This document shows, piece after piece, positions 11,825-57,300 of a DNA stretch of 64,000 nucleotides. The notes under the pieces are model-generated. The model saw only the letters and a list, made by a program, of their open reading frames with translations. It searched no databases and was not told the origin of the DNA. How positions within the stretch are numbered: position 1 is the first letter of the stretch; each line of letters starts with the position of its first letter. Origin of the DNA: Apophysomyces variabilis (lineage: Eukaryota; Mucoromycota; Mucoromycetes; Mucorales; Mucoraceae); contig MZZL01000376.1 in assembly GCA_002749535.1 (NCBI GenBank), positions 1-64,000 on the forward strand. Reading direction: 5' to 3'. The translations under genes and the position numbers were made by a program.

Positions 11825-14538
<2,714 letters not shown>

Positions 14539-14672
14539 TTATTGTCAAAGTAGAATGCCAGTGTCCGCACCGCCACTGAGCTAAAAGTGACGTGACCGCT
14601 GGGTTGGCACAAAAAATTAAAGCTCAGCAATCAAAAAGGCTTCAGTGATACAATATTAACAAGTGAAGGGAT

Positions 14673-14694
14673 ACTATAGCCATTCTTCTATAGT
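14673..14694 (-). repeat. Short hairpin just past the Fanzor stop codon
   Basis: Seven-base arms (14673-14679 and 14688-14694) pair around an 8-nt loop only 2 nt beyond the Fanzor stop. In characterised TnpB/Fanzor loci the guide RNA is transcribed from the 3' end and downstream flank, so structure here is noted as a candidate part of an omega-RNA. A hairpin this small can arise by chance. Confidence 0.4.
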
Positions 14695-14696
14695 TT

Positions 14697-17637
14697 TCAA
14701 CTGGAAGTACGTGGTCGAAATTCTGGTGGTCTTTCATCCTTATTTCTCATCATGTATAAGAATACTTCTCGGATATTCATGGCAGCCATATGATCGCGGT
14801 TCCAGTATATTGCCGGGCATGATTCTTTCTGACAAACCAACACAGCAAGTATCCCTGCGCCTTCTTGACCACTTGCGTCCGGTCGTTCCTTATTTTTTTG
14901 GAGGCTTTTTTCCTTGCAACGTGGGCATGTTTGTGAAGTTAAGTATTCATCAACCATAAAGACATAGGTTGGCGACTGTCAAACAAAAAAATAGAAGTAA
15001 ATAGCATGACCTTAACATTACCTTTCTTGGTAAAAGCTTGACGTTTTAATTCTTTAACTATCGCTTTCGTTGGGGCAGCCACCCGACCATGCATTGAACC
15101 TTAAAAAGTCCCATTGCTATAAACAATTATTATAGGCCCATTTCTTTCGTCTTGCTTGTCGTTGGGGCAATGAGCAACCCATTTCTTTTCATTCGGCTTT
15201 TTTCGATTCTGAGAACTGTTCATGTTGTATTTTCTGCTATCACATAGGAGCCTCTTGGATATTTCAGCTCTTCCTTTCTGTCTGCCGATGTATGATTTGA
15301 ATTTGAGTTTGTTATACCTAGACTATCGTTACATAACAGGTGATATAACAGCAATCCTACCTCAGATCTCTACTATAGAATTCAGTAATCGTTTCGTAGT
15401 GCTGCATAACATATTTCACAGAGTCAGTGAGCTTCCGTAGCTCAGACGTTTTGAGAGACGGTATATCGCCGATCAACTTTTTGGGCTTCAGGCTCGGCAT
15501 CCATATACTGTTTTCGCCTTTGGTTTGCACGATTATAACGACAGATGGAGTAGTACTCCGTAGTTGTGCTTGTGCGAACTCGGTGCGGTGACGAAGGGTT
15601 GCCATCCGCAGCCACAAACACGCTTGAAACACCTGGATCAATGCCCCAGACGACTGCATTATCGTATTTGCCTTTCAGATTGGCCGGAGTGAGAGGTTTC
15701 TTTTTAGGGTCAAACGGTTCTACGTACTTCTTGAATACAAATTCCACGTCCACCCCGTCAGTACGGATGACGTCCCTTCAAGCACTTTAGTAATTCAACA
15801 TATGAATGCCATTGTCTTACTAGAACATTGTTCTTTCATTTTCTAGGCTTTCATAGGTAGGATAACCGAATTTGGCCGTGTCGAACAAATCAAAGTACTC
15901 ACGTCGAGTTTGCGAAGGGTTCACGGGCGTCTGATTGTCTCGTCTACCGGCTTGAAACAGAAGACGTGCCAATGCTTGAATGTCAATGGTAATGTGTCGC
16001 ATCTGAAAGCTGTAAACGGGCAGCAGTGTAAAATTCCAGGTTCCCTTTGGATCAGTATATTTTTCCGGAGCGAACGTGTTGCTTTCAATGGCATCAATTG
16101 TTTCTTTGATAAATGATTCAAGACTGGTCATTTCGGCTTCACGGAGCGGTTCAAATCTCTTTGGGGGCCGAAGCGAAGATTTTTTTCTGATTGCTTCTCG
16201 AACTGCATACTTGAGACTTGATCGAAGTCGCTTAGATAGTGGGTTTGTGTTTACCAGCTGAAAACGGGAATAGAATCAATATACCGAAACTTAAGAAACC
16301 GCAAAGTTAATTTACTTCTTCCACCGTCAGGTGAACGTATGCTGTTGAAACATGGTTTTTTGGTTTACCTTCGGTAATGGCAATTTTTTTGCTCAAATCT
16401 CTTCATGACTTGAAATAACCAGGGCAAAAACAAATGAGGTTTGGCACTCAAAATGTTCTCGTCAATGGTGGTTACACCAAGTGTAGAGCGAACCAATTTC
16501 ACCAGTGATTCGGATATGTCAATAAAGCCTTGATTTTTATCAATTGATGTAGGCCATTGACAATCAATATCGTATAGCTTATTGTACATGTACTCCGCCA
16601 TAGTATTGCGATCTTTCACTGTGGACGACTCGCAGAAGGCTTCATCGTTCTTGTCGGACATGCAAATCAACAGGTACTGCGTTGTCTTTTTCTTAAAGTT
16701 TGCGCAGACATGATTACGAATCGCCTCTTCGTATTCTTTGGCCGCACTTGAGACCACTGTCATGAATCGTTTCGATTTGAACTTGCTTTCTTGAAAATTA
16801 CCAAGGGACACCTGGAAAGTGGCAAACGCGTTTTTCAGGCTTTCATCGGCATTATGTGCTTCGCCTGCAATTAATGCAAAAAGGGTGTAGCACAGCTGAT
16901 GGGTGATCGGAGGAATCTCTTTTGATTCGGAAAGTGCTTTACGAAGTAAACGCTGGCAAAGAGAGACCCAACATATGTCACGTCTCGCACATGCTTTACG
17001 CATTCTCTGACATTTGCCAACAAAGCTTGCACTCCGGCAGGTGTTTGACAGCGAGGCTTTGGTTACTCGCGTTTGCTTAAAGTTTTTCGGAGGCTTCCTT
17101 TTTGTGGTAGGATCTTTACACAGTTTGCTTGTGCTTCTCTGATGATCGGTCCCTCCGCAAGTGGGACATCTTAATGCCTTGCCACTTGACAACTTTTCCT
17201 GTACGCTTGCTTGTTGTAACTCTGCTTTTGCTTCATATTTTGCGCTTCTCTTTTCATATGCCTTTTCAGCCTTGGTCAGAGCTTTTGACTCCTTTACGAA
17301 CGATGGACCTTCGACAACTTGTAAGCAAGATACCGGAAGCGTGGAAAAAAGCTAAATAGCTGCTTCAGGAATGCTTTCAGTGTATTTGTGAAGTGAACTC
17401 TCTGTCTCATCATCATCCTTTTGTGCGACATCGGCCGAGTCTATAACCTTTTCTTTTCCTTTCTTCTTTTTGGCAGTGGGGCCTACTTTGATCAAATCGC
17501 AATTTAGCTGCCAATATGCCACGGTCATAAAAGCATTACTGCTTACCTGAACGTGTTTTGCCTTGAATGACAATAGACGGCTGGAAGTCATCATCATCCT
17601 CTTCAATAGGTCCTTTGCGGTTTTTATGTTTATCCAT
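14697..17637 (-). pseudogene. Fanzor (eukaryotic TnpB-like OMEGA RNA-guided nuclease), decayed
   Basis: Fanzors are eukaryotic TnpB homologues that use an adjacent omega-RNA to cut DNA. ATG 17637 opens a basic N-terminus (KHKNRK and AKKKKGKEK patches, NLS-like). After intron 17486-17546 come a CPTCGG motif (about 17170-17150), a long helical region, RuvC-I GIDPG at 15631-15645, RYNKLKFKSYIGRQK near 15330-15290, VDEY (candidate displaced RuvC-II Glu) at 14943-14954, a Zn ribbon starting CPRC at 14916-14927 with a later CQKESC, and RuvC-III NRDHMAAMNI at 14772-14801. Introns also fit near 16260-16320, 15790-15830, 15320-15360 and 14960-15010. Damage: in-frame TAG at 17352-17354, frameshift at the 7-T run 16384-16390, frameshift at the 5-T run 15478-15482, in-frame TAA at 15101-15103, and a stop created across the 15.8 kb splice join. 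Catalytic motifs themselves are intact. Confidence 0.9.
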
Positions 17638-19740
17638 CGTGGGATTGAAGAAAATTAAAAAGAAGTGACAGCAAAATCTGTCCGCAGCTTTCAGATATAG
17701 ACCTCTATTTTCTTTTAACCGGTCACTCGCTGAAGAATACAATACTGATGTTAATTGTTTGACTCGTGACATTATCCCACTCCTTCCTTCTTAACACCTC
17801 TTAGTCAACGGAACACTCATACAGCGTTGGAACTTTTGCATATATTTTACTTAAACTTTTGGTGCATTCCATTAGCTAACTGTTTTGTAAATGGATATTT
17901 ATTGGAGAAAGGGCATTAAATAGACTGAAGAGGGTCAGTATCTGAAGATGACATGCCGGTGAGCCGAATATAGGCGATCTGACAGGTTAGTACAGCAACG
18001 GCTATATCTGCCTCCAGAATGAGGCATAAGTCTACAATTAATGAGCGCGTAGTATTAAAAAAAGAGAGAAATTTGAGAAGCTAGCTTACGGATAAAGCAT
18101 AACACACTGACCAACTTTGAGACACAGCTTATGAGGCTGTAGCCTACTAACATCAGCCCTGCGTTGCTCTGCCATGGCTGACATCAAGAACAATGTGATA
18201 AATTACTTGCCCGCCTTAGTTCGCCCCAAAAGATATTAGAACACGATAAACTAAATCATAACAGAGCATAGATTTCATTCTTCCTATACAACTGTCGATG
18301 TTTTGGAATATATAGGACGCCCAAGAATTCTCAGATGCATTACTCTCATCAATATCTCTGCTTAATGGCTTACAAAAACGCAGGTTTTCACTATCCTTCC
18401 TTCCAATAGACATAAAATAGGTACCAGTTACTGGCTTAGCCCTTGGGCATCATGAAAAGAAGAATGCTTACTGGCTACTGGTCTCGGCCCTTTGTGCCTC
18501 GCGTTCTAGGTAGTGGAAAGTAGCCCTCGTGTAACATACACCTCAAATTCTCATCACCCATGCAAAAGCATTTTTTGGATTCCGCAAAAACTTGAATCCC
18601 AGTTCGTAAATAAAACATAGAAACACGCAGACAAATAGGAAAAACACAGTAAATGAAGGCCTAACTAGCTATCATGGCAAATTAATCCATTATTACATTG
18701 TTCCCTATTTAATCCCGTACTCATCCACTTCAAATACGTCTTTTACAGCAAAATAAAGCATCAAAGCGTGTTTTCCATTACTCCCGTTAATTTTTGTTAT
18801 CGCTAATATTACGAATATGGAAGAAAGAGAAGCTTTTCGAGTCAAAATGAGGCTGCTTATTTTCTATGCACAACTTTCTATGACATACATGATGTAACCA
18901 TTTAATCTAGTTCAAGCTACTAACGTTAAATTTTCTGGCAGCAGAAGATGATACGCAGATGACAGATACCACAATAGTACGGGATGGTTCAAAACCTTAA
19001 AATTTGGTTATCTCAGCCAACTGGTGCACGATCGACAGCACTGACCGCTACCGTCCCTGTCATCGGCGAGATATTCACGCAACCTACTGACCCTAGTCAG
19101 TTATATCGTTGCCAGACGCGATGTCTATGTTAGTTGCTTGATTCAGAATAGTGATATTTACGTTCTCCGTTGGGAGGATCCGGTTCTCGATGCCATATCT
19201 TTTATTCGAGAAAATAGCTCACCTAAAAATCTGCGGATAGCAAACAAAAACTTATAGCTCGCGTGCTCTTCTGTTTGTTTTGTAGTGTGCTTTCTATAGT
19301 CTACTACGAACTTTGCTTTGAATGGGATTGACTTCGCACTAGTACAGTGCCGTAACAGAATGCTTAACGTTAAAAGGCAGAAGCCATGTTTTTGCTGTAT
19401 AAGAGTCGCTAAGATGTAAGACAAAAATAAGAGTAAAGTAGCATGGTCTTGCTACTTTACGACAATCTTCATTCAAAAACTACTTAAACGTAATACAATG
19501 AGAAGAACTGATGGATCCATCATTGTTATTGTATTCTTGTAACGTGCATTGACCGAGGAAGATGTTAGCATCTGTTAAGAACGATACATATGCTGGTAGA
19601 TGATGGCCTACTACGGCAGCATGGATAAATAACAGAGTAAAAAAAAGGCATAGGCTGTTGAGCATTAATGGATTAACTAAGATGTTTAACGGTAATTTGG
19701 CTGGTTTATCGTGCCTCTGCGGTACGTTCGTCTAACGCAT
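17638..19740. other. Intergenic region upstream of Fanzor
   Basis: No gene is supported. The segment holds one copy of a 74-bp dispersed repeat (18566-18639) and the diverged left flank of duplication copy B (from about 19320). I looked for terminal inverted repeats matching the other side of the Fanzor at 14585-14697 and saw none that are convincing. Confidence 0.5.
18566..18639 (+). repeat. Dispersed 74-bp repeat, copy 1
   Basis: Matches 63614-63686 in the same orientation with about four differences (one T-run length change, three short substitutions). Similarity stops abruptly on both sides. No open frame or inverted ends are visible, so the parent element is unknown. A degraded third relative may lie near 24860-24895. 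Confidence 0.85.
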
Positions 19741-25242: not shown

Positions 25243-28224
25243 ATGCGCCTTATTCCACGCGAAATTGATAAATTATTACTTCATCAAGGTCTGACAACGC
25301 TAAATAAAAGCTTCAAATCCATTGTTAAGCTAATAGATACCTATATTAGTGGGCTATCTCGCACAAAAACGATTGGCACGTGGTGTTAAACTCAATCACA
25401 CTGAAGCAACGGCGCTCATAGCATCTCAAATTCTCGAGTTTATGCGTGATGGAATATATACTGTTGCACAGTTAATGGACCTTGGAAAACAAATGCTTGG
25501 TCGACGCCATGTTATGCCAGAAGCCCTTACTACAGTGGCTGAAGTTCAAATAGAAGGCACTTTCCCTGATGGCACGTATTTGGTCACCATTCACGATCCC
25601 ATTTGCACAGAAGACGGCAATCTCGAATTAGCACTGTACGGCAGTTTCCTGCCTATCCCAGATCCTGGTCGTTTCAAACCGTCTCCAGAAATAAGGGCAC
25701 CGGACGCCCCTGGGGCTATCATTCCCAAAAGCGGGGTCATCGAACTCAATCAAGGCCGCAAGAGAATGGCACTCACAGTCACCAATCAGGGCGACAGGCC
25801 TATCCAGGTAGGTTTTATCTGGCTTTGAATGGTGTCTTTGTGAACCAATGCGGCTTTTGCTCTTGATCAGGTAGGAAGCCATTTCCACTTTATTGAAGCC
25901 AATGCTGCTCTTCGTTTCAATCGTGCCCTTGCCTATGGCATGCGTTTGGATATTCCCGCAGGATCCGCAGTTCGCTTTGAACCTGGAGACTTCAAGACGG
26001 TCACTTTGGTGGAAATTGGTGGAAATAAAGTCATCTCTGGTGGAAACGGTCTGGCTTCAGGGCCGGTCGATATGGCCAGGTTACCGGGCATTATCCAAAG
26101 TTTGACCCGTTTAGGGTTTATGCACGACTCAGCTGCGCCTTTGTTACCTCATGAACCTTATAAGCTGGACAGATCTTATTATGTTGACCACTTTGGGCCA
26201 ACTACCGGAGATCTAGTTCGTTTGGGCGATACTGAACTTTGGGCACGTGTTGAAAAAGATTACACCGTCTATGGCGATGAATGCAAATTTGGTGGTGGCA
26301 AAGTGCTTAGAGAAGGAATGGGTCAATCCAATGGTCTTAGCGAGGAGTTTGTTTTAGATCTGGTGATCACGAATGCTCTTATTATCGACTATACGGGAAT
26401 TTACAAAGCTGATATTGGCATCAAGAATGGCATTATTGTTGGCATCGGCAAGGCAGGAAATCCGGATGTGATGGATGGTGTCACACCAGGCATGGTCGTG
26501 GGTGCATCGACTGAAGCACTAGCGGGCGAAGGCAAGATCTTCACAGCGGGGGCCATCGACACCCATGTACATTTCATCTGTCCACAATTGTGTTACGAAG
26601 TTGGTATTTTTACGGTTTTCACTTTGACTTTGTATTCACGCGTCAAACAGGCTTTAGCAAGCGGAATCACAACATTGATCGGAGGTGGTACCGGTCCCAA
26701 TACTGGAACCAATGCAACCACTTGTACACCTGGAAGTTACCACGTCGAAACAATGCTGAAAGCAACTGATGATATTCCATTGAATTTTGGCTTTACTGGC
26801 AAAGGTAACTGTGTCAACAAAGAAGCTTTGACAGAGTCTATCAAAGCCGGCTGTCTTGGTATGAAGTTGCATGAAGACTGGGGAACTACGCCTGCTGCAA
26901 TTGATGCCTGCATGCAAGTTTGTGACGAGCATGATGTACAAGTAAGTTCTTATTTTTCTTTCATCCCTTGAAACGAGAAGGGTTATGGACTAAATTATTC
27001 ACAGGTGACTATCCATACCGATACTTTAAATGAAGCTGGTTTTGTGGAGTCAACCATAGCTGCGTTTAAGGGAAGAACAATTCACACATACCACAGTGAA
27101 GGTGCTGGCGGAGGCCATGCTCCAGATAGTACGTGAACGTTGTTAACTTTGCTGTTATCATGCTGCTAAAGGATGGATCTAAAAACTAATCGTAGTTATC
27201 CGTGTCTGTGGCGAACCTAATGTACTGCCTTCGTCGACCAACCCAACTAGGCCGTTTACGACGAATACGCTGGATGAACATGTAGATATGTTGATGGTTT
27301 GTCACCATCTATCCAAAAATATCCCTGAAGATGTCGCTTTTGCCGAAAGTCGCATTCGTGCAGAGACTATTGCTGCTGAAGATGTCCTGCATGATATAGG
27401 CGCCATTAGTATGATCAGTTCGGTAAATGTGGGCTCGATCTAGCCGTATTACTACTAACGTACCATCTGCAGGATGCACTCGCTATGGGCCGTGTCGGTG
27501 AAGTAGTTCTCCGAACGTGGAAGACAGCAAGTAAGATGAAGCAACAGCGTAAGAAGCTACCCGAGGATGCAAATATGGATGGCGATAATTTCAGAATTAA
27601 ACGATATATTGCCAAATACACAATTAATCCGTAAGAAGAAATGACTATTGTTTTGAGCTCATGAAGTTAAATGTGACATTCGTTGTCAGTGCTATCGCTC
27701 ATGGTATCGGCCATCTGGTGGGGTCCATCGAAGTTGGCAAAGTGGCTGATCTTGTTGCATATACGCCTGCATTTTTCGGTTCAAAGCCTGAGCTTGTACT
27801 GAAAAGCGGCATTATTGTATGGGGTCAAATGGGTAAGTAACTATCTGTCATTGTCGGAACAATTTTTTGTTTACAGTTTTACATTATTTCTGTAGGAGAT
27901 TCCAATGGATCCATTCCTACGACTCAGCCTATTATCTCTAGACCAATGTATGGCAGCTACGCATCCAGCCTATCCAATACCTGTATGATCTTTGTGTCCC
28001 AATTGTCTATTACTTCCGGGACGATCGCCAAGTATGGTTTGCGAAAGCGTGTTGAAGCCGTCAAAGGATGCCGTTCTGTTAGTAAAATCGATATGAAACT
28101 GAATGATACCATGCCACAGATAGAGGTTGATCCGGAAACCTACAAAGTAACTGCGGATGGTGTGCAGTGTACTTGCGAGCCTGTGACATCATTACCATTA
28201 ACACAATCTGTATATTTATTCTGA
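25243..28224 (+). CDS. URE1: Urease (fused gamma-beta-alpha, nickel-dependent)
   Basis: Hydrolyses urea to ammonia and carbamate in the cytosol. The short first exon from ATG 25243 ([15 protein letters not shown]) joins [12 protein letters not shown] across an intron ending near 25348, giving the standard urease gamma N-terminus. The beta region has a VGSHFHF motif. The alpha region has THVHFICPQ (Ni ligands), MKLHEDWG (carbamylated Lys), VTIHTDT and [15 protein letters not shown] (Ni/substrate His), and MVCHHL with a downstream [13 protein letters not shown]sp. All key residues are present. About eight introns occur; that at 26600-26650 is 51 nt with no stop and would be read through if unspliced. 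The C-terminus reaches a normal length. Activity would require UreD/F/G-type accessory proteins, not encoded here. Confidence 0.96.
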
Positions 28225-54351: not shown

Positions 54352-57300
54352 ATGATCATTCGATTTATTCTCGTGTTTATCTTTATCACGGTTCAAGTAA
54401 TTGTCATTGCTGCTCAGCGTTATACTATCCAATTCCATTCTCGTCCTGGTAACCGTGAGGCTGCCATTAAAGATCAGGATGCTTTTCTTAATTTCCTCAG
54501 AGGAAACAACGTGAACTTCAAGCTACGGTATAGGTATACTGATGTCATGAATGCCGTTTCAATCGAATTACTGCCGCCTGAGGTTGTTTCATATGATGAA
54601 AGTCACGTCAATAGCACCATGAAACCCACGATGTTTATGGCAGAGACCATTATCTCCTGCCCTTATGTCCATCGTTATTGGCCTGGCAAACGCTATGCAC
54701 GCCCGAAAATAGTCATGACCCCAGAAGACTTGGAGATAGGCATTCCCAACTTAGAATCGGCCCACAAATTCACCTCTGTTGCACAAGCAAGAGAAAATCA
54801 ACTCGATGGCCAGGGCATCAAAATTGCTATACTCGATACCGGCATTGATTATACTCATCCAGCTTTAGGAGGGTGTTTTGGGGTAAAAAAAGAAAACGTT
54901 CCTAAACTGAACAACGCAAAGAAAAAAAATCTGTATGCTCTGTAATTAACGAGCTTTAGCATGGATGCCTAGTTAGCGAAGGCTATGACCTTGTGGGGGA
55001 TCGCTACGGTGGTATAAACAGTTTATATTCATTCTGCGAAATCATCAACTGAAGTCTGTTATGATATCTTTGTTCATTAGATGACATTCAGCCTAACCCA
55101 GACAATGATCCCATGTAAGTGGTAAACAGCAAGAAAGCAAAATTTTATGTGATTCTTTTTTTTTATCATATGAAGGGATACGTGTGATGGCCATGGCACT
55201 CACGTTGCTGGAATCAGTAAGTTTGGAAAATTGCAAAAGAATCTTAGGGCCTCGTTTCGATAAAATCGCCTTACTTTTTTTTTCCCTTTTCTTTGGGGAT
55301 TAGTCATAGCAAACGATACCTATAAGGTGGTAGGACGGCATAGGGTTTAAAGATTTACACATGTAATTTGTTGATAGGGATTTCAAGGCGTTGCACCAAA
55401 GGCTCAATTGAGCGTCTGGCGGTAAAATTAGCTAATAGCCTTTTGACTACCTTCTTATTTACATTGTTTCTATTTCTTTTTGGCAGTATCTTTGGTTGCG
55501 ACGGTGATACAGACGATGACATTATTCTCCAAGCTGCGTAAGTTTATCTGCATGGAAGGCTCTTGTATTCTCCTCTTACCATTGAATGTGGAGCCTAGAG
55601 AATTGGCTGTGAAATCTGGTGTAGATATTATAAACTTATCGCTTGGAGGAGGTCTAAGCGCATGGCAGGAGGTGCGTACAAAGATAAAGATGGATACGTA
55701 GAAAAGTGGGCGAAGAAACAAGATGAACGAAGAATTGGTTGCATACAGAGAGAGGCTGTTTCAATGAACTTTATACGATTAGGATGCACTTGCAGTAGCG
55801 TTGTCCAACCTTGTGGATACCGGGATTGTGGTCATTGTTGCGCAAGGCAATGAAGGGCGAGATGGTAACTAAGAAGAAATTAGCCTGTCAACCAAAAAAA
55901 AAAAAAAAAAAAAAAGGAGACCNNNNNNNNNNNNNNNNNNNNNNNNNNNNNNNNNNNNNNNNNNNNNNNNNNNNNNNNNNNNNNNNNNNNNNNNNNNNNN
56001 NNNNNNNNNNNNNNNNNNNNNNNNNNNNNNNNNNNNNNNNNNNNNNNNNNNNNNNNNNNNNNNNNNNNNNNNNNNNNNNNNNNNNNNNNNNNNNNNNNNN
56101 NNNNNNNNNNNNNNNNNNNNNNNNNNNNNNNNNNNNNNNNNNNNNNNNNNNNNNNNNNNNNNNNNNNNNNNNNNNNNNNNNNNNNNNNNNNNNNNNNNNN
56201 NNNNNNNNNNNNNNNNNNNNNNNNNNNNNNNNNNNNNNNNNNNNNNNNNNNNNNNNNNNNNNNNNNNNNNNNNNNNNNNNNNNNNNNNNNNNNNNNNNNN
56301 NNNNNNNNNNNNNNNNNNNNNNNNNNNNNNNNNNNNNNNNNNNNNNNNNNNNNNNNNNNNNNNNNNNNNNNNNNNNNNNNNNNNNNNNNNNNNNNNNNNN
56401 NNNNNNNNNNNNNNNNNNNNNNNNNNNNNNNNNNNNNNNNNNNNNNNNNNNNNNNNNNNNNNNNNNNNNNNNNNNNNNNNNNNNNNNNNNNNNNNNNNNN
56501 NNNNNNNNNNNNNNNNNNNNNNNNNNNNNNNNNNNNNNNNNNNNNNNNNNNNNNNNNNNNNNNNNNNNNNNNNNNNNNNNNNNNNNNNNNNNNNNNNNNN
56601 NNNNNNNNNNNNNNNNNNNNNNNNNNNNNNNNNNNNNNNNNNNNNNNNNNNNNNNNNNNNNNNNNNNNNNNNNNNNNNNNNNNNNNNNNNNNNNNNNNNN
56701 NNNNNNNNNNNNNNNNNNNNNNNNNNNNNNNNNNNNNNNNNNNNNNNNNNNNNNNNNNNNNNNNNNNNNNNNNNNNNNNNNNNNNNNNNNNNNNNNNNNN
56801 NNNNNNNNNNNNNNNNNNNNNNNNNNNNNNNNNNNNNNNNNNNNNNNNNNNNNNNNNNNNNNNNNNNNNNNNNNNNNNNNNNNNNNNNNNNNNNNNNNNN
56901 NNAAAAAAAAAAAAAAAAAAAAAAAAGGAGACCACTTTATTTACGTCTTTCTTATTCGTATGGAAGGCGTTGCTAGAACGCCTTCTCCATCGACAGGTCG
57001 GCATGTTCTTACAGTAGCATCAGTGGACAATACAGAGAGAATTGCTCACGTGCTGCACGTCATGAATGGGACGCAGATCCAGACAAGCTTAGGTACCAAC
57101 AGAAAAAGAAAACCCTAGTTACCATCTGAGACTCAATCTTTGCGACCTTTTTTTTTTTTTTAGAATACACGCTTTCGGATGACGAGCAATATACTTTGCC
57201 TAAACTCACTAATCTGAGCTCAATCCCAACGCGTGTTGCTTGTAACCCTATAAGGGAAGACCTTGCTGGTCGAATGGTATTGGTTCCCACACGAGGTATA

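Follow-up and report, generated by a model that had tools for sequence, protein, structure and literature searches.

The 64,000-nt stretch of Apophysomyces variabilis DNA analyzed here (contig MZZL01000376.1; hereafter, the window) carries at 14697..17637 what is very probably one copy, now dead, of a Mucorales-type fungal Fanzor1 element that would have been omega-RNA-guided when intact. Taken by itself, this copy is an unremarkable, defunct representative of an established kind, whose function we infer from sequence. The gene, which has spliceosomal introns, sits in a repeated eukaryotic element and not in IS607. What is new beyond the preliminary description of this DNA is the 3' end of the element, comprising a hairpin and a tail. 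The features of the element are collected in Table 1.

Table 1 Features of the Fanzor1 element in the window and its 3' flank
Feature	Position	Strand	Basis or remark
Repeated subfamily A element with dead Fanzor1 gene	14657..18559	-	Similarity between copies breaks off abruptly at both ends
5'-terminal module	18516..18559	-	Nine other places carry 33-42 nt of the first 44, continued by other DNA
Fanzor1 pseudogene, ATG to stop	14697..17637	-	Reading frames, Pfam, alignments with solved structures and relatives
Exon 1 (MDKHKNRK...)	17547..17637	-	GT donor at 17546, kept in copies covering the site
Exon 2, KKKKGKEK run; first base ambiguous (17507 or 17485)	17360..17485	-	
Intron 2, donor lost	17318..17359	-	Comparison with other copies
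Exon 3, REC-side region with CPTC...H...C knuckle; three one-base indels (~17018, ~16936, ~16390)	16316..17317	-	
Exon 4; nonsense codon at the exon 5 junction	15821..16257	-	
Exon 5, RuvC-I GIDPG (codons from ~15645); one-base indel ~15485	15361..15775	-	
Exon 6, KLKFKSYIGRQKGRAEISKRLL region; nonsense codon near 15098	15022..15317	-	
Exon 7, alternative RuvC-II glutamate (VDEY), CPRC...CQKESC zinc ribbon, RuvC-III NRD	14697..14975	-	PF07282, PDB 9cf0/8gkh/9cer
3'-terminal hairpin, 7-bp stem, begins two bases after the stop codon	14673..14694	-	Pairing kept across subfamilies
17-nt tail ending GTTA: element 3' end, predicted end of the omega-RNA scaffold	14657..14673	-	One mismatch to the tail pattern
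3' flank, predicted former guide stretch	14637..14656	-	Role inferred

A Fanzor1 gene on the minus strand

The gene spans 17637 to 14697 on the minus strand, from an ATG at 17637 to a TGA stop codon at 14699-14697, and the interval given in the preliminary description matches these coding limits exactly; all Fanzor motifs lie on this strand, which had not been named. Its proposed identity as a Fanzor relic is supported by PF07282, by solved Fanzors, by full-length relatives and by residues aligned with RuvC. Specifically, in the profile search that had been suggested as a check, the piece corresponding to the last exon matched PF07282 (TNB), described in Pfam as the Cas12f1-like TNB domain, at 4.7e-8 and with 33.5 bits against a curated cut-off of 26.3 bits, while the remaining six of the seven gene pieces matched no Pfam family above its cut-off. 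The same exon matches the solved Fanzor1 proteins of Parasitella, Spizellomyces and Guillardia (9cf0, E 1.3e-4; 8gkh, 0.0069; 9cer, 0.0091), and L050, a relative from the same genome, matches 8gkh (3.7e-7) and 9cer (7.3e-5). The top solved match of the window exon, PpFz1 of Parasitella parasitica (9cf0), is likewise a Mucorales Fanzor1, but its sequence is distant, failing to reach E 1 with L050, and it carries an FRI cyclophilin-binding insertion (PMC11423790). The gene pieces also align over the full length with the Fanzor/TnpB-type protein P0001 and with P0002-P0004 from the Mucorales Helicostylum pulchrum, Mucor flavus and Thamnidium elegans, which are named as hypothetical, uncharacterized or TNB-domain proteins. 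The window gene pieces are 50-57% identical to L050, which in turn is 35-37% identical to P0001-P0004. PF07282 scores above its cut-off in P0001, P0002 and P0005 and slightly under it in P0004; the AlphaFold model of P0001 is poor, with a pLDDT of 43.

The catalytic motifs GIDPG, VDEYLTSQTCPRC and NRDHMAAMNI occur in the order previously described. RuvC-I GIDPG in exon 5 aligns with GVDPG of the relatives, whereas the zinc ribbon and RuvC-III lie together in exon 7 (CPRC...CQKESC...NRD), with the glutamate of VDEY six residues before CPRC (E-YLTSQT-CPRC). A DPG motif and a glutamate six residues before CxxC are reported as molecular fingerprints of Fanzors (PMC10711439), and both are present in the window gene, as is a basic KKKKGKEK run in exon 2. 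In SpuFz1 of Spizellomyces punctatus, D383, E541 and D606 are reported to hold metal ions (PMC10432273). Using these residue numbers together with a derived constant chain offset of 394, which fits all three residues, we found in HMMER alignments that the E of VDEY corresponds to E541 and the D of NRD to D606; the D of DPG corresponds to D383 (five-relative profile), where the match is weak on its own at 9.0 bits but in order with the strong one. The absence of a profile match, or acidic motifs lying off the RuvC sites, had been named in advance as arguments against a Fanzor; both were tested, and the motifs align to the RuvC triad, D383 weakly. The profile, solved-structure and full-length matches rule out that the motifs arose by chance.

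The Fanzor family in the genome

Searching the A. variabilis genome with the last exon gave 102 matches at E<=1, of which 81 at E<=1e-3 merge into 71 places; at 45 of these, E is below 1e-10. Subfamily A comprises 11 close copies including that of the window, which is 90-95% identical to nine of the ten others and 82% identical to the tenth; subfamilies B and C are 53% identical to A in the last exon. The expectation that close intact relatives exist elsewhere was therefore borne out in part: there are 71 places and one uninterrupted copy, but this copy, L050, belongs to another subfamily (C). It is uninterrupted over 825 codons, counted from exon 4 of its model onward. Stops are also present in several B and C copies. 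A more distant match at C30:22069-22302, only 32% identical in the last exon, keeps an exact 17-nt tail (C30:21991-22007).

Introns and lesions of the window copy

Subfamily A genes have six short introns of ~40-60 nt, and GT...AG is kept at five of these six positions in the window copy, in agreement with the "about five" introns counted before. At intron 2, the GT donor is lost in the window copy while it is kept in all nine other copies covering it, and reading through this intron leads to an in-frame stop (17352-17354). We considered this stop to be a plain nonsense codon but dropped this reading because the other copies point to a lost splice donor. Calling lesions against the majority of the ten other subfamily A copies, we found four one-base exon indels, two nonsense codons and the lost donor, which substantiates that the gene is interrupted; a fifth indel lies in intron 6. 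The window copy is dead and broken in at least seven places. That the gene is in fact intact and the lesions are assembly errors could be argued from four of them being one-base indels, one within an A run; however, the two nonsense codons and the lost donor are substitutions unshared by the copies covering those sites, and all ten other copies carry 1 to 16 indel events each relative to the majority (same span, introns counted), pointing to general decay in the family. We regard assembly errors as scarcely credible.

Four intron positions are common, by eye, to the window copy and L050. Because they are shared with a subfamily only 53% identical in the last exon, these introns are older than the spread of the family. 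The preliminary description had the gene domesticated to fungal splicing; it is intron-bearing with spliceosomal introns, as claimed, but it is an old intron-bearing gene rather than the result of domestication. Moreover, the introns retained in the copies suggest that the element spread as DNA and not via spliced mRNA. The shared intron positions, together with a fungal-type CDC5/CEF1 neighbor and the repeats across the assembly, also rule out contamination by a prokaryotic TnpB.

A modular 5' end

The element is 3.9 kb long, with its 5' end at 18559 and its 3' end at 14657, with ~920 bp upstream of the ATG and 40 bp downstream of the stop codon; no frame of >= 80 codons lies wholly inside the 5' 920 bp. 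A CDC5/CEF1 splicing-factor gene adjoins the element at 12695-14538. The 5' end of the element is modular: besides the recurrence of the terminal module (Table 1), a stretch 81% identical to bases 10-137 of the 5' end of subfamily A is present at C66, where a degenerate Helitron gene lies behind it, consisting of a Helitron_like_N match with RepHel-like frames ~2 kb downstream.

Several other repeats were observed around such 5' ends. At 18547-18655 in the window, a SINE- or MITE-like repeat of ~110 nt, scored at no fewer than 40 places among 199 candidates, abuts the 5' end of the element. At L062 (C90:419000-427800), inverted and tandem repeats of a 5'-end module that is common with the Fanzor element surround ORFs, one of which matches DUF6729 under its cut-off. 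Finally, a palindrome-like motif, GCGAGGCCCAAAGGGCCGAG, recurs at module borders in the 5' regions of L038, L041, L042, L045 and L047; possibly, it is a recombination point of the mosaic 5' ends.

A hairpin follows the stop codon

In subfamilies A, B and C alike, a hairpin is located just after the stop codon, with the stop codon within the hairpin in B, and its stem ends 16 nt from the end of the element. The sequence of the stem differs between subfamilies, and the pairing is kept. We compared 20 of 30 ends, omitting the repeats or near-repeats L005, L008, L010, L018, L022, L023 and L030 as well as the altered ends L006, L007 and L025. Across these 20 distinct ends, the stem was paired in 95.7% of cells, and three of the seven pairs changed on both sides. 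The covariation score was 0.462 compared to 0.156 in shuffles, none of 500 of which reached it, and to at most 0.134 for slid partners; of note, this score is inflated by related rows and in effect reflects one three-pair switch between A and B/C. Neither the count of pairs with double changes (reached by 463 of 500 shuffles) nor the number of pair types (287 of 500) exceeded the shuffles. The exceptions among the ends were L025, in which the hairpin is missing, L006, whose tail is incomplete, and two copies with ends of another kind, L007 and L026.

As read from the sequences, pairing of the hairpin at the DNA level and at the RNA level would leave the same signal, and the two cannot be told apart. 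A 200-nt fold of the window 3' end was no better than shuffles (z -0.68), and Rfam gave no match in 14000-19000. We also considered that an omega-RNA overlaps the end of the coding sequence and imposes synonymous constraint there. Between B and C, 15 of 27 fourfold sites were alike in the last exon versus 56 of 187 in four other exon pieces, while the last exon had 5 of 17 alike for A versus C and 8 of 17 for A versus B; the excess, which favors such an overlap, occurs in B versus C only and so does not establish it.

Elsewhere in the window, Rfam RF02514 (5' ureB sRNA) matches 26306-26597 on the minus strand with 115.9 bits, antisense to an apparent urease gene (25844-26971, plus strand; by eye); this match probably reflects shared coding sequence and not an sRNA. 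The window also contains a run of N at ~55920-56900.

The 17-nt tail is bound to Fanzor genes

The hairpin is followed by a 17-nt tail, which ends in GTTA in 26 of 30 copies compared. A search of 38.7 Mb for its pattern, TATNYCWTAACTTGTTA, gave 18 exact matches, each located 44-123 nt 3' of a same-strand match to a Fanzor exon. Eleven of these matches come from copies used to design the pattern; the other seven are independent and include the C30 locus with its last-exon identity of only 32%. Of 13 further matches with one mismatch, 8 are at Fanzor ends, the window copy included, and 5 elsewhere; a reversed control pattern had 20 matches at <= one mismatch. A B-type tail gave 11 matches (10 exact, one with a mismatch), all 11 at Fanzor places by eye, compared to none for its control. 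Altogether, 37 Fanzor ends are marked by either tail. The test covered 94 of the 102 last-exon match rows, the other eight being second rows of the same places. In a limited survey of the Fanzor literature, which extended to Mucorales and Helitrons, we found no account of the 17-nt tail. We suggest that hairpin and tail are probably the end of a guide-RNA scaffold and, at the same time, the right end of the transposon, with the flank as the guide.

The 3' flank as a candidate guide

In Spizellomyces, small-RNA sequencing revealed a conserved RNA that covers the sequence between the stop codon and the right end and continues into a variable guide of 14-15 nt (PMC10432273). Because the window 3' end has the same layout, the same use is suggested by analogy. 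As reported there, Spu-1 and its SpuFz1 gene resemble the element described here in the Fanzor1 triad at aligned positions, the many copies, and a conserved right end directly past the stop codon with variable DNA beyond it (PMC10432273). They differ in that SpuFz1 is a single ORF whereas the window gene has introns, and in that no inverted repeats were seen by eye in the window element, unlike in Spu-1 (PMC10432273). Moreover, 134 ghost loci without the gene are described for Spizellomyces (PMC10432273), whereas here none of the 18 exact tail matches (exact pattern only) lacks a Fanzor exon.

The DNA after the tail is unrelated between copies: the best of 378 pairs agreed at 12 of 20 positions, as expected at random. 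This comparison included 28 of 30 ends, with L007 and L026 unparsed, L025 wrongly placed and L006 having a shortened tail. The first flank base was A or G in 23 of 28 ends, a possible site preference. The flank of the window copy, 14637..14656, has no second match in the genome when up to two mismatches are allowed. An unmatched guide region fits a target that is the empty allele, and a random 20-mer would behave alike.

Our working model for an intact copy is as follows: a transcript across the 3' end would give rise to an omega-RNA with a scaffold ending at GTTA and with the next ~15 bases of host DNA past GTTA as the guide. Loaded with this omega-RNA, Fanzor would cleave the corresponding empty site beside a short TAM, be it on the sister or homologous chromosome or at the site left by excision, and repair would restore the element or copy it back into the cut site. 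A transposase supplied from elsewhere would move the element to new sites. We saw no TAM consensus by eye in the few complete 5' flanks.

Which machinery moves the element?

Because the flanks share no similarity above random, new sites are not chosen by the old guide, and the plain reading is that some transposase must act. A target duplication abutting the element was absent from all 17 copies considered, several 5' limits in B and C being block starts rather than proven ends; L046 has 7 bases common to both flanks that do not abut.

One candidate route is that of a non-autonomous Helitron (or Helitron2), in which the Fanzor is cargo and the 3' hairpin a rolling-circle terminator instead of an RNA scaffold. 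The modular 5' end and its link to a Helitron at C66, with 81% identity over bases 10-137 near a Helitron_like_N match, make a Helitron-like route possible. The genome has 28 Helitron_like_N matches, the hairpin is close to the 3' end of the element, the 17 copies lack a target duplication, and L032 and L033 have lost the 5' part and kept the 3' end. A like pattern is described for Fanzor1 in Chlamydomonas Helitron2 (PMC3627910): CRe-1, CRe-2 and CRe-3 are, as here, multi-exon Fanzor1 elements with a hairpin near the 3' end, and their 3' ends are kept while 5' ends are often lost (PMC3627910). However, both ends of the CRe elements are Helitron-like, and many CRe copies have target duplications of 7-19 bp (PMC3627910), whereas here no such duplications were seen and neither of the two Helitron 3' ends that we read matches that of the Fanzor element. 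A Helitron route predicts a common 3' end, which is absent from these two, the RepHel copies L066 and L067, as they end in another hairpin and CTAG, then T. Also, the exact Fanzor tail lies beside Fanzor exons only (18 of 18). Overall, we consider the Helitron route somewhat unlikely.

As an observation on the RepHel copies themselves, the 3' ends of L066 and L067 (C73 and C95) have a common GC-rich hairpin, CAGCCGCGTGCGGCTG, ending in GGCTAG then T. Separately, a Helitron-type Pif1 helicase fragment, X, is present upstream of some B copies. We dropped the idea that X makes B an autonomous Helitron because the 5' blocks form a mosaic that varies from copy to copy, and the region upstream of L063 holds host-like genes (by eye).

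Fanzor1 was described from Rhizopus, Phycomyces and Mucor as early as 2013 (PMC3627910), and elements reported for these genera raise the alternative of a MuDR-type transposon with Fanzor1 cargo, 9-bp target duplications and TIRs. In its favor, the protein relatives are from the same fungal group, and nine bases (GGGTGATGA or GGTTCCTAT) precede the shared GAATTTGAGG; yet they also turn up at unrelated sites and lack a counterpart on the 3' side, and a terminal inverted repeat was not found by eye, making a MuDR-type element highly improbable.

Finally, Fanzor and omega-RNA could themselves be the main means of spread, by one-ended copying after an RNA-guided break: the break would be repaired into the 3' end of the element, and the 5' end would be set where copying stops. 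At the ends of the elements, we found only the Fanzor 3' hairpin with its tail to be kept in all three subfamilies. One-ended copying would fit this, as well as the exact tail not being found apart from the gene, the element having no transposase that we could see, and no target duplication being left. Because the flanks of the copies share no guide-like similarity, which argues against it, we judge this to be very improbable.

Implications

To our knowledge, the role of Fanzors for their hosts or transposons is hardly known. It is the genome, rather than the window copy, that is worth following up, in view of the 71 places, the uninterrupted relative and the 3' end bound to Fanzor genes. The precisely mapped 3' end yields omega-RNA and guide predictions for some 37 loci, and the A. 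variabilis genome may serve as a system for asking what Fanzor does for its transposon.
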